A stretch of DNA of 48,350 nucleotides from a bacterium. Lineage in GTDB: Bacteria; Cyanobacteriota; Vampirovibrionia; Gastranaerophilales; Gastranaerophilaceae. The stretch is taken from positions 1 through 48,350 of the forward strand of contig JAFQOI010000131.1 in NCBI GenBank assembly GCA_017403285.1, given 5' to 3'. The position numbers were made by a program, and so were the translations under genes. The number at the start of each line of letters is the position of its first letter. Position 1 is the first letter of the stretch. Below, in pieces: positions 12,981 to 34,515 of this stretch. Below the pieces are notes generated by a model that saw only the letters and a list, made by a program, of their open reading frames with translations, was not told the origin of the DNA and searched no databases.

Positions 12981-13964
12981 GTGAAATTTAAATGTTGTGA
13001 ATCTTTACTTCATAATTTAGTTATAAATCCAAAGGATATATATTTCTGTTGTTCTACATTTGATAAGAGATTGGAATATATTCCAGAATATCATGGTGGA
13101 CTTTTAGACTTAGAATATTATAAAAAAATAAGAGCAAAATATATAAAAGATTGCAAAAATGGAAAGTATCCTGAACCTTGCAGTCAGTGTCCTTTTTTTG
13201 TGGAACAAGAATGGGACGAAACGCTTGGCTTTACTACAATTTCTGTTTCAAATAGAACAAAGTGTAGTTGTAATTGTATTTATTGTATTATTTCTGGCGG
13301 TGGAGATATTGAAGCTAAGAGAAGATTAAATACACAAGAAACTTATGATGTTAAACCAGTGCTTGAACAATTAAGAAGAAGTAATATGGTTATGGATAAT
13401 TGCCAGTTTGTTATTGGTGGTGGAGAATGTAGTGAGTATCCTGAAGGTGAACTTGAATATCTTGTCTATTTTTCAATGATGACAAATGCTTATATTATTC
13501 TTTTAAGTTCAGGGTTCTTTTATTCTAAAGCGATAGAAAATGCACTTGCTTCATCTAAAGCACAATTAAAAATATCAGTTGATGCTGGCTCACGTGAGGT
13601 CTATAAGCAAGTTAAACAAGCAGATATGTTTGATACGGTTTGGGATAATATTGAAAAGTATATTCATTCACAAAAAGATAATCCTGCTTCAGAAGTGATT
13701 TTGAAATATGTCATAATCCCTGAAGTTAATGATAGTGTTGAAGAAGCAAAATTATTTGTTGAACGTTGTTTGAGTGTTGGCTGTGAAAAAATAGAAATTG
13801 CATTGGAATTTTTTTGGCTTGAAAAAAATCATATGAAAGAAGAAATTCCTCAATCTCTTGTTGATACGATTAGATATTTTGAATCACAAAAAGAAAATAA
13901 TGTCTTTTTTGCAAATAATATTTCTTCTCATATTACCAAGTGGTTAAAGGAAAATTTTGTTTAA
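12981..13964 (+). CDS. Radical SAM protein with N-terminal Cys motifs, copy A
   Basis: 327 aa from GTG 12981 (AAAAGG 10 nt upstream). The radical SAM cluster motif is C95-x3-C99-x2-C102, and the SAM-binding GGE-type strand is FVIGGGEC. Further cysteines precede it: C5/C6, C23-C24, C58 and C67-x2-C70, a pattern that could ligate an auxiliary Fe-S cluster at the N-terminus. The C-terminal half (SSGFFYSKAIE, ISVDAGSREVYKQVK, KYVIIPEVNDSVEEA) is the rest of the barrel. It uses reduced 4Fe-4S and SAM to make a 5'-deoxyadenosyl radical; the substrate is unknown. A paralogue at 31601-32551 shares all of these motifs. MoaA/PqqE-like chemistry on a peptide or sugar precursor is possible, but unproven. 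Confidence 0.82.
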   Translation: MKFKCCESLLHNLVINPKDIYFCCSTFDKRLEYIPEYHGGLLDLEYYKKIRAKYIKDCKNGKYPEPCSQCPFFVEQEWDETLGFTTISVSNRTKCSCNCIYCIISGGGDIEAKRRLNTQETYDVKPVLEQLRRSNMVMDNCQFVIGGGECSEYPEGELEYLVYFSMMTNAYIILLSSGFFYSKAIENALASSKAQLKISVDAGSREVYKQVKQADMFDTVWDNIEKYIHSQKDNPASEVILKYVIIPEVNDSVEEAKLFVERCLSVGCEKIEIALEFFWLEKNHMKEEIPQSLVDTIRYFESQKENNVFFANNISSHITKWLKENFV

Positions 13965-31600: not shown

Positions 31601-32551
31601 TTAATTTTTATAGAACCAGTCTTTTAGTGATTCGTAATAATCGAGTTTAATATCATCTTCTTTGCATTTATTTTGTATTGTCTTTATCATTTCTTTCATA
31701 TTATCTGTAATAGTATGATTGTTGTTTTTGTACCAATTCATTTCTACATCTAAAATTATTGATTTTATTCCAAGTGATAACGATATATTGTACCATTTTA
31801 AAATTTCTTCAACAGAGTCATTATATTCTGGAATAATAATATATTTGGAAATCACAGAACTTTTCGGATTTTTACTTGTCGCTTTTACGTATTTTTTCAT
31901 ATTTTCAAGGACTTTTTTAAAACAATGTACGTTCTTAACTTTTCTGTAGACCTCATCGCTTCCAGCATCTGGAGAAATTACAAGTCTAGTCGATTTCTCT
32001 TTTAAAACTTTTTCGATGGCTTTTGAATATTTAATTCCACTTGAGTGAATTAGGTAATTATCTATATTGTTTTTTACGAAAAGACTTATTATTTTTTCAA
32101 AATCTTTCATTAAAACCGGTTCCCCTCCAGCAAATTGCATATAGCCTTCTGGGATATTTTTTATCATTTTTTTATCGCATAGTTGTTTTAATATGCTATA
32201 AATTGATTTTTCTTTAAAATTTTCAATATTTTTGCAATCACAATATACGCATTGGCTATTACAGTTTATAAATGTATTTATGTCTATATATCCAAAAGCC
32301 AAGTCATCATTTTCTGTTTCTGTTTTTGTTATAAACAGGCACCCCTCACATTCTTGTGGGATATCTCCATTCCAAAAACGTTCTTTATACTCTTTTTTCT
32401 TTTGAATAACATTGTCGATGCTAAAATTATCATATGTTATCAATATGGGCATACCTACAGTCTTATGCGCAGATTTACAACAAACTCTAATTTCGTTATA
32501 AAAAAAATTAATTCCACTATCAATATAAGGGCATTTGTATCGTTGAGGCAT
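31601..32551 (-). CDS. Radical SAM protein with N-terminal Cys motifs, copy B
   Basis: 316 aa. The radical SAM motif is C97-x3-C101-x2-C104 and the GGE strand is QFAGGEPV. Preceding cysteines C7, C24-C25 and C68-x2-C71 repeat the spacing seen in the paralogue at 12981-13964 (C5, C23-C24, C67-x2-C70). Shared C-terminal blocks include SSG-x-x-YSKAIE, DAGS-x-EVY and IIPE-x-NDSVEE. The extra cysteines probably hold an auxiliary cluster. It is the third gene of a minus-strand set: reductase-like, SGNH hydrolase, radical SAM. Substrate unknown; the context suggests modification of a surface or secreted molecule (inference). Confidence 0.82.
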   Translation of the reverse strand: MPQRYKCPYIDSGINFFYNEIRVCCKSAHKTVGMPILITYDNFSIDNVIQKKKEYKERFWNGDIPQECEGCLFITKTETENDDLAFGYIDINTFINCNSQCVYCDCKNIENFKEKSIYSILKQLCDKKMIKNIPEGYMQFAGGEPVLMKDFEKIISLFVKNNIDNYLIHSSGIKYSKAIEKVLKEKSTRLVISPDAGSDEVYRKVKNVHCFKKVLENMKKYVKATSKNPKSSVISKYIIIPEYNDSVEEILKWYNISLSLGIKSIILDVEMNWYKNNNHTITDNMKEMIKTIQNKCKEDDIKLDYYESLKDWFYKN

Positions 32552-32611: not shown

Positions 32612-33508
32612 CTATAACTTCAGTCTTCTTATAATTGTAGGCATTAATCTATCCCAAGCGGCTTCTGATGGGTGGAGTTCATCTTGTGCGATGTATTTAT
32701 CTTCGTTCAGAAAATCATATTTTGCTGTATCAAAGTTGATTACGATAATTCCTTCATCTTCCAATTCCGTCCATCTGTCTGTGTGGAAGTTTGCAACCCC
32801 CATTCTTTCTGATGTAACGCTAGTATTATATACGATAGTTACGAATTTACAGTTTGGATTTTTCTTTTTTAGTTCCTTTTGGCTTTCTAAAATATGCATT
32901 TTAAGAAAATCAAATTTTTCATCATCACTTTTTAGTGTGTAGAAAAAGTCGTTTGACCTTCTTGCAATAGTTGTTGTTTTAAAATAATCCAGTGGGACAA
33001 CGGAAAAATTATTTTCAATTAATGTATTGTTCTTTTTTATATATCTTAAATATTTGTATTGTGCGTATTTGTCAAAGTAGTTTAAATATAAACGTCTTAA
33101 ATGATCTGTTATGAATATATATATAACGTATTCTGCATTTTCTACCTCGTTATTAAATTCATCAAAGTTCTTTATTTTATACAGAACATGTTGTATTCCA
33201 TGTGCAGGATATGCAAGATTTAGCGTTTTTCTTCCAGTCATAGTCTGAATTTTATCTGGTAGCGTTTGCCCGTCTTTTAAATCAACTCCAAAACCGAACG
33301 AACAACCCATTATAATAACTGATTTTTTTGTTTCGTCAATTTCTCCGAACAATACCCCTCTTTTTCCAAATGTATCTTTTGGATTTACTGGAAAAACTTG
33401 ATATCTATCTGAAGCAGTTAAACACCAGTCAGCAACAATAAATGTTATTATTGCACAAAAAGAAATGACTATACTCTTTATAAATACCTGTTTTTTATTC
33501 GTTTTCAT
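32612..33508 (-). CDS. SGNH-hydrolase-like protein with N-terminal membrane anchor
   Basis: 298 aa from ATG 33508 (CAGGAAA 7 nt upstream), preferred over an in-frame TTG 21 nt earlier. One membrane segment lies near residues 9-29. Block I of SGNH hydrolases is visible as IIMGCSFGFGVD, supplying the nucleophile Ser. Block V is DELHPSEAAWDRL, with the Asp-x-x-His pair. These enzymes are esterases, often acting on acylated polysaccharides or lipids outside the membrane. It lies 14 nt after the reductase-like gene and 60 nt before the radical SAM gene, so one transcript is likely. The topology suggests a periplasmic or cell-surface domain. Confidence 0.78.
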   Translation of the reverse strand: MKTNKKQVFIKSIVISFCAIITFIVADWCLTASDRYQVFPVNPKDTFGKRGVLFGEIDETKKSVIIMGCSFGFGVDLKDGQTLPDKIQTMTGRKTLNLAYPAHGIQHVLYKIKNFDEFNNEVENAEYVIYIFITDHLRRLYLNYFDKYAQYKYLRYIKKNNTLIENNFSVVPLDYFKTTTIARRSNDFFYTLKSDDEKFDFLKMHILESQKELKKKNPNCKFVTIVYNTSVTSERMGVANFHTDRWTELEDEGIIVINFDTAKYDFLNEDKYIAQDELHPSEAAWDRLMPTIIRRLKL

Positions 33509-33522
33509 TGTTTTTTCCTGTT

Positions 33523-34515
33523 TTAGCAATCACAAAGTTCTTTTAAGTGTTCAAGTTTTGGGGCTATTTTTTCAAAAGATGGTAAATTGATGTTTAGTTC
33601 TTTTGCTTTTTTTAAAGTATCAAAGAATTGGAAATAAAATTCAGGTATTGAATGAGAGTTTATATCATTTTCTGCTCTTGAACGCATATCTGGAGCAGCA
33701 AATGCATAATCTTTTGAAACTTGTTCATAAAAGTCATTGTTGTTTATAACGCCTATTCTTTCACCAAATGTAACTAAATCTTGTAATAATGAATACATTG
33801 TTTCAGAGGCTTCTTTGTTTTCTAAAATTTCCCCCATGTTTTTTTTGTACAAAAGTCCAGTTATTTCAAAAGGTGCAATTAAACAATGCTTTTTAAATGA
33901 TTCATTTAATATTTTGTTTTGTTCATAAACTTTTATAGGAAGTGGAACATTTTTAACAATGTTTTCAAGTTTTTTGTACATTTTCTCTTGTTTTTTGTAA
34001 TCTTCTTTTGTGCTTGCGCCCAAGTAAATCCCACTAAATGTTCCAATTTGTTTTATTCCTAAAATTCCATCTTTTTCATTTCTGAAAAATGGACCATAGG
34101 CATATCCTGTTGTTATGTTATGGTTTGGTAATTGGGTTTTTAAAAATTCTGTTACCCCAAAGCCATTGCAAACAGGGATTATTAATGTGTCTTTTTTTGC
34201 ACATTTTTCTATTATAGGAATTATTGATTTTAAGTCTGGTGTTCTTGTGCAAATAAAAATATAATCAACTTTTTTTGTATAATTTGTTCTTTTTAAATTT
34301 ATATTTGTAAAAACTTCTTTCTTTTTATTTAATAAATCTGAATAAAAGTTAATTCCCTTTTGGTTTGTTATCCTGTTATATTGATTATCCTTTGCTATTG
34401 TTACAACATTCTTTTTTGCAATTGTTAAAAAAGCAGCGAGTGCAAGCCCTAGTCCACCAGCGCCTATTATCATTATTTCTGAACTAAAAAAAATATTTTT
34501 AAATTTGCTAAACAT
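33523..34515 (-). CDS. Divergent ketopantoate-reductase-like (ApbA/PanE fold) protein, copy B
   Basis: 330 aa. The Rossmann motif is MIIGAGGLGLALAAFLTIAK and the middle Asn-Gly motif is VCNGFGV. The region that holds K-x3-N-x3-N in true PanE reads ESFKKHCLIAPFEITG, so a Lys is kept but the Asn positions are Ile and Glu. It shares SF-x8-FExT, the N-terminal MFxxF and overall length with the protein at 11604-12587. It is an NAD(P)-dependent oxidoreductase by fold; substrate unknown. It heads the minus-strand set with the SGNH and radical SAM genes. The only nearby purine-rich tract is GGGG; no good SD sequence is seen. Confidence 0.75.
   Translation of the reverse strand: MFSKFKNIFFSSEIMIIGAGGLGLALAAFLTIAKKNVVTIAKDNQYNRITNQKGINFYSDLLNKKKEVFTNINLKRTNYTKKVDYIFICTRTPDLKSIIPIIEKCAKKDTLIIPVCNGFGVTEFLKTQLPNHNITTGYAYGPFFRNEKDGILGIKQIGTFSGIYLGASTKEDYKKQEKMYKKLENIVKNVPLPIKVYEQNKILNESFKKHCLIAPFEITGLLYKKNMGEILENKEASETMYSLLQDLVTFGERIGVINNNDFYEQVSKDYAFAAPDMRSRAENDINSHSIPEFYFQFFDTLKKAKELNINLPSFEKIAPKLEHLKELCDC

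Follow-up and report, generated by a model that had tools for sequence, protein, structure and literature searches.

Two radical SAM paralogs in the window

The window, the whole stretch of 48,350 nucleotides analysed here from a Gastranaerophilaceae genome, carries two radical SAM genes, P0001 and P0002, in inverse orientation (Table 1). P0001 begins with a GTG start and encodes 327 aa with cysteines at C5 C6, C23 C24, C67 C70 and C95 C99 C102, while P0002 encodes 316 aa with C7, C24 C25, C68 C71 and C97 C101 C104. The placement and near-equal spacing of these cysteines claimed in the sequence-only reading thus agree to the residue in both proteins. They share 33% identity (E 2e-33), and in each the four-Cys region precedes the core. 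Both passed the radical SAM cut-off of Pfam and no other Pfam family did so in either protein; P0002 gave an additional Fer4_12 match below the cut-off.

Table 1. Positions of the genes and domains considered in the window
Feature	Position	Strand	Basis
P0001, radical SAM protein whose N-terminal domain has four Cys (Twitch-like)	12981..13964	+	PF04055, 35.4 bits (cut-off 29.5)
P0001 N-terminal four-Cys domain	12981..13220	+	Cys conservation, profile alignment
P0001 Cys codons	C6 12996-12998, C23 13047-13049, C67 13179-13181, C70 13188-13190	+	
P0001 radical SAM core, residues 94-256 (C95/C99/C102)	13260..13748	+	Pfam
P0002, paralog with the layout of P0001	31601..32551	-	PF04055, 68.6 bits
P0002 N-terminal four-Cys domain (C7, C24, C68, C71)	32309..32551	-	In register with NF033640 profile positions 14-72 (11.1 bits)
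P0002 radical SAM core, residues 92-253	31793..32278	-	Pfam
P0003, membrane-anchored SGNH-hydrolase-like protein	32612..33529	-	Authors' reading of GxSxG-type and DxxHP motifs
Short protein (small TPR family) in head-to-head orientation to P0001	12577..12900	-	Pfam on another member
ApbA/PanE-like reductase upstream of P0001	11568..12587	+	Pfam
ApbA/PanE-like reductase upstream of P0003-P0002	33523..34515	-	Pfam

Seven cysteines are invariant among the paralogs

A search of the same genome (2.23 Mb, 162 contigs) with P0001 returned 43 matches at E<=1e-3, of which 42 were ORFs in the fetched stretches, one of these 42 being truncated at a contig end. Alignment of these homologues bore out the pattern, as C6, C23, C67 and C70 and the CX3CX2C motif (C95, C99 and C102) were Cys in 42/42 paralogs, and a chance occurrence of the cysteines was rejected because of this invariance. 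The spacing C6-X16-C23 was found in 35/42 (X17-22 in the remainder) and C23-X37..49-C67 was variable in length, while C67-X2-C70 and C95-X3-C99-X2-C102 were kept in every paralog. C24, which completes the CC pair, was Cys in 33/42 and C5 was unconserved. Therefore, the N-terminal auxiliary Fe-S site put forward in the sequence-only reading fits the conserved residues, but the putative site would have four cysteines and not six. In an alignment of 39 of the 42 paralogs (A1, which omits two longer proteins, with 761 and 433 aa, and a 218-aa one truncated at a contig end), the four Cys were the sole invariant columns of the N-terminal region; the invariants beyond them were the core Cys and Y101, G148, K212, K242 and N250. 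The motif CX2CX2CX3C is that of ferredoxin-like and glycyl-radical-activase cluster inserts, and an insert of this kind was rejected since the motif was absent from the conserved columns of A1.

In the wider family cluster, all seven Cys fell in aligned columns in 148/180 members. The other 32 comprised 24 N-terminal-SPASM types with a shifted last Cys, five with CX3C, two fragments and one C-terminal SPASM protein.

The N-terminal domain is very probably a relocated Twitch domain

According to part of PMC9012708, about 165,000 radical SAM genes carry a SPASM or Twitch domain, described as an extension at the C-terminus. The Pfam SPASM profile scored over its cut-off at nine places in the genome, six N-terminal and three C-terminal in their proteins. 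The six relatives with an N-terminal match are radical SAM proteins about 330-360 aa long. N-terminal SPASM and four-Cys members occur in common arrays, both on contig C159 of the same genome and in other genomes. We then compared the four-Cys domain with SPASM by hhalign. The 42 paralogs aligned with 29 C-terminal SPASM domains with all four Cys in register (score 26.9, P 8e-5), while the maximum of 100 column shuffles was 14.3; both this comparison and the SPASM placement left out L052, L072 and L077. A wider alignment of 148 members and nine single-copy outgroup proteins scored 29.7 against C-terminal SPASM (P 7.6e-6, probability 84%, all four Cys aligned; maximum 14.1 in 60 shuffles) and 29.0 against the N-terminal SPASM set (shuffles <=18.2).

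We also searched PDB sequences with these profiles. The N-terminal SPASM profile (A7; 14 members and the viral protein L148) found the C-terminal Twitch domain of BtrN as its best match (E 4e-9), followed by anSME, SuiB and CteB. BtrN was likewise the best match of the four-Cys profile with the start of the core (A2; E 0.005), with the order of the two matching stretches reversed. The cysteines of the four-Cys members also follow the Twitch pattern of C, C and then CX2C with SPASM-like spacing (motif as given in part of PMC6231123). The seven-Cys SPASM pattern, CX2CX5CX3C with a further Cys for AuxII, was not found, as the A1 invariants pass from C67/C70 to the core.

Convergence of an unrelated domain on a four-Cys site would explain why the four-Cys N-terminus gave negative or weak results when used alone: SPASM was absent among the matches listed in a Pfam scan of 39 members, the N-terminal profile (A6) retrieved no BtrN at E<=10 from PDB sequences and its best matches were at chance level, and its comparison with A7 was weak (probability 5%). 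However, the register of the four Cys and the hhalign scores far above their shuffles argue against convergence, as do the arrays common with N-terminal SPASM members and the homologous cores, and we consider it improbable. Structural approaches with P0001 were of low information, as its AlphaFold model from a four-sequence input had a mean pLDDT of 52.8, with values below 50 over residues 1-51 and 61-174, and a solved-structure search with P0001 alone gave nothing useful. We infer, with good support from the profile alignments, homology to Twitch with a permuted order: the N-terminal four-Cys domain is very probably a diverged Twitch (half-SPASM) domain relocated ahead of the core. The contrast with SPASM/Twitch clusters drawn in the sequence-only reading was misleading in this respect, given the profile alignment and the N-terminal SPASM relatives. 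The four Cys alone do not identify the metal, so that zinc or a purely structural cluster without a catalytic part might be considered; the homology to SPASM/Twitch profiles, whose known members hold Fe-S clusters according to part of PMC9012708, speaks against it and makes it slightly less probable still than convergence.

Comparison with described families

The same order, an N-terminal Twitch domain followed by the core, is found in NF033640 (N_Twi_rSAM), the NCBIfam family of twitch domain-containing radical SAM proteins. Its viral member L148, a viral contig protein (288 bits), has Cys at the same places, CC and then CxxC. However, all 38 matches to this profile in the genome scored below its cut-off of 170 bits, the best at 54 bits, and P0002 matched in two stretches with 17.9 and 11.1 bits. 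The NF033640 profile is also longer (398 positions) than P0002 and P0001, and the huge number of paralogs sets the present family apart. The suggestion of an undescribed subfamily therefore needs narrowing: N-terminal-Twitch radical SAM proteins already have an NCBI family, although every protein of this genome scores below its cut-off, and we found no paper on the P0001 family among open-licence literature. What is new is the scale, with 42 copies in one genome of ~2.2 Mb.

Among characterized enzymes, BtrN (PDB 4M7S/4M7T), a 2-deoxy-scyllo-inosamine dehydrogenase, is the closest by the A2 and A7 profiles, whereas A6 alone misses it. BtrN acts on an aminocyclitol and holds one auxiliary [4Fe-4S] cluster in its Twitch domain, fully ligated by four Cys and proposed as electron acceptor (part of PMC9012708). 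The domain lies C-terminally in BtrN but N-terminally in P0001 and P0002, and the C-terminal Twitch placement of the enzymes described in parts of PMC9012708 and PMC6231123 was not observed here. The SPASM enzymes (PF13186; anSME, PqqE, SuiB and CteB) share the domain superfamily, while the present domain stands before the core and has only four of the seven Cys of SPASM. Enzymes with this domain ahead of the core offer a natural test of how an auxiliary cluster gains access to the active site.

The family is expanded in few genera and stably maintained

The nearest named record to P0001, at 86% identity, comes from a Candidatus Gastranaerophilales metagenome assembly. P0001 found 11-42 matches in 20/22 other genomes of the genus and none in the remaining two (G008 and G019, with 18-20 radical SAM matches in total). 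In other families of the order, it found one match in 5/15 genomes and none in 10/15. The N-terminal profile matched in 19/146 genomes of the family; three genera are expanded, with 10-32 per genome among the matches listed, and eight family genomes have one or two. In a sample of the phylum, 10/194 genomes matched this profile, every one in this family. Tblastn searches in phages and plasmids and viral scans led nowhere. Three expanded genomes of the genus had totals of 76, 85 and 81 radical SAM matches, a g68 genome had 86 and a g64 genome 42, compared with 17-23 in each of six family genomes from other genera. With G008 and G019 included, eight genomes of the family fall within that lower range, and the paralog count of the expanded genomes marks a large unexplored chemistry in gut bacteria.

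We then examined whether the copies are stable. Across four genomes, 139 copies formed 77 groups, the largest of 13. Of the 16 reciprocal best pairs between the genome of the window and stretches of G014, one was 51% identical and 15 were 72-96% identical, with dN 0.03-0.19 and saturated dS (about 1.7 or more). The nine genes of the C159 array have the same order and orientation in G014. As judged from these comparisons, the array members are under purifying selection between the two species, and a reading as mobile or fast-diversifying genes was rejected because the arrays are syntenic with low dN. In G014, these nine genes lie directly left of the genes that open the window, and therefore the window probably continues the C159 array locus. 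Identity to P0001 is mostly 20-30% among the paralogs, indicating that the duplications predate these species and that each copy was kept. Since the copies stay at the same places in close relatives, each paralog probably has its own job.

Peptide maturation and surface glycans as possible functions

The best PDB match of the core profile was SkfB, and Twitch/SPASM enzymes are often RiPP maturases according to part of PMC6231123, which would suit peptide or protein maturases that introduce cross-links or epimerised residues in RiPPs or proteins, like SkfB and YydG. A fusion to a MATE exporter in one paralog (L023:7491-9776 in G000, 761 aa) points the same way; a protein of similar length in the same cluster (764 aa, L135 from 7749 in G132) has syntenic surroundings. 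However, only two ORFs of at least 20 aa were found in 69 gaps around 46 members of the genome (60 gaps under 100 bp, none over 300 bp), so adjacent precursor genes are lacking, and the Pfam scan of 39 members gave no RRE-type family among the matches listed. We therefore regard maturation as unlikely, if still a serious contender.

On balance we lean towards P0001 and P0002 belonging to a lineage-expanded, permuted-Twitch radical SAM family that would use its auxiliary cluster as an electron acceptor and act on surface glycans or glycolipids. In this scheme, the core cluster (C95/C99/C102) would cleave SAM, the 5'-deoxyadenosyl radical would abstract a hydrogen atom from the substrate, and, by analogy with the proposal for BtrN, an auxiliary [4Fe-4S] cluster on C6, C23, C67 and C70 would accept the electron from the substrate. 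The net result would be a two-electron oxidation, or an epimerisation given a hydrogen donor, and the likeliest substrates would be sugar-type hydroxyl carbons in the building of cell-surface glycans or glycolipids, one per paralog. The glycan substrates and the dehydrogenase chemistry are the weakly supported parts of this proposal.

Neighbours and fusions point weakly to surface glycans. In other genera, single-copy relatives are found as fusions to a hexapeptide O-acetyltransferase closest to WbbJ/WcaF (L090 by scan; L091 and L092 look alike) or to a GT2 glycosyltransferase (L093). A GDP-mannose 4,6-dehydratase occurs in radical SAM arrays, and SGNH-like genes are among the neighbours; the PF16363 gene and the glycan fusions stem from genomes other than that of the window. 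Against the glycan reading, most copies in the genome of the window lie outside glycan loci, and their direct neighbours are mostly unique, non-recurrent genes, several of them housekeeping-like by reading of the sequences. Moreover, the orthologs in 15/16 pairs are conserved like housekeeping genes, unlike typical fast-changing surface-glycan genes. A speculative extension, which we consider doubtful, is that one clade of gut Gastranaerophilales (three genera of one family) uses a set of ~45 permuted-Twitch enzymes, each kept in place and under purifying selection, to tailor a single surface polymer or glycolipid at many positions without adjacent precursor peptides; if true, it would be radical-chemistry tailoring of a size that we did not find described in the literature searched.

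Genes around the paralogs

The SGNH-like family, the small TPR family, ApbA-like reductases, polytopic membrane proteins and GDP-mannose 4,6-dehydratase recur as neighbours in radical SAM-rich stretches, counts being biased by the 20 loci (L118-L137) picked for their richness in these genes. P0003, for which no Pfam match was found, adjoins P0002, and its family is sometimes found beside radical SAM genes: an SGNH-like gene lay within 1.5 kb in 7/37 cases compared with 5.4% expected (p 0.003), which we do not count as strong evidence. The P0003 family is itself a second expanded family, with 3-23 copies per genome, often in tandem, in 22/24 genomes of the genus. In 11/13 cases, a gene of the small TPR family and a radical SAM gene were arranged head to head, the latter often with a P0001-like start (KCC.LLH).

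In G001, G002, G006, G020 and G132, radical SAM genes on both strands make up nearly all of stretches as long as about 35 kb (L118-L125 and L134), where TPR, SGNH-like, ApbA-like and polytopic membrane proteins are interspersed. Two of the last (L118:10001-11566 and L120:12803-14563) had no Pfam match over cut-off, and some of their relatives carry TPR tails; as a guess, they are possibly of GT-C type. Also inside the arrays (L124:5959-6924) lies a radical SAM protein of a different kind, whose N-terminus is signal-like (MKRRDFICGLS...). On a viral contig, a 255-aa Cys-rich repeat protein (L146:4192-4959) directly precedes a small radical SAM gene, and the two could be an enzyme-substrate pair.
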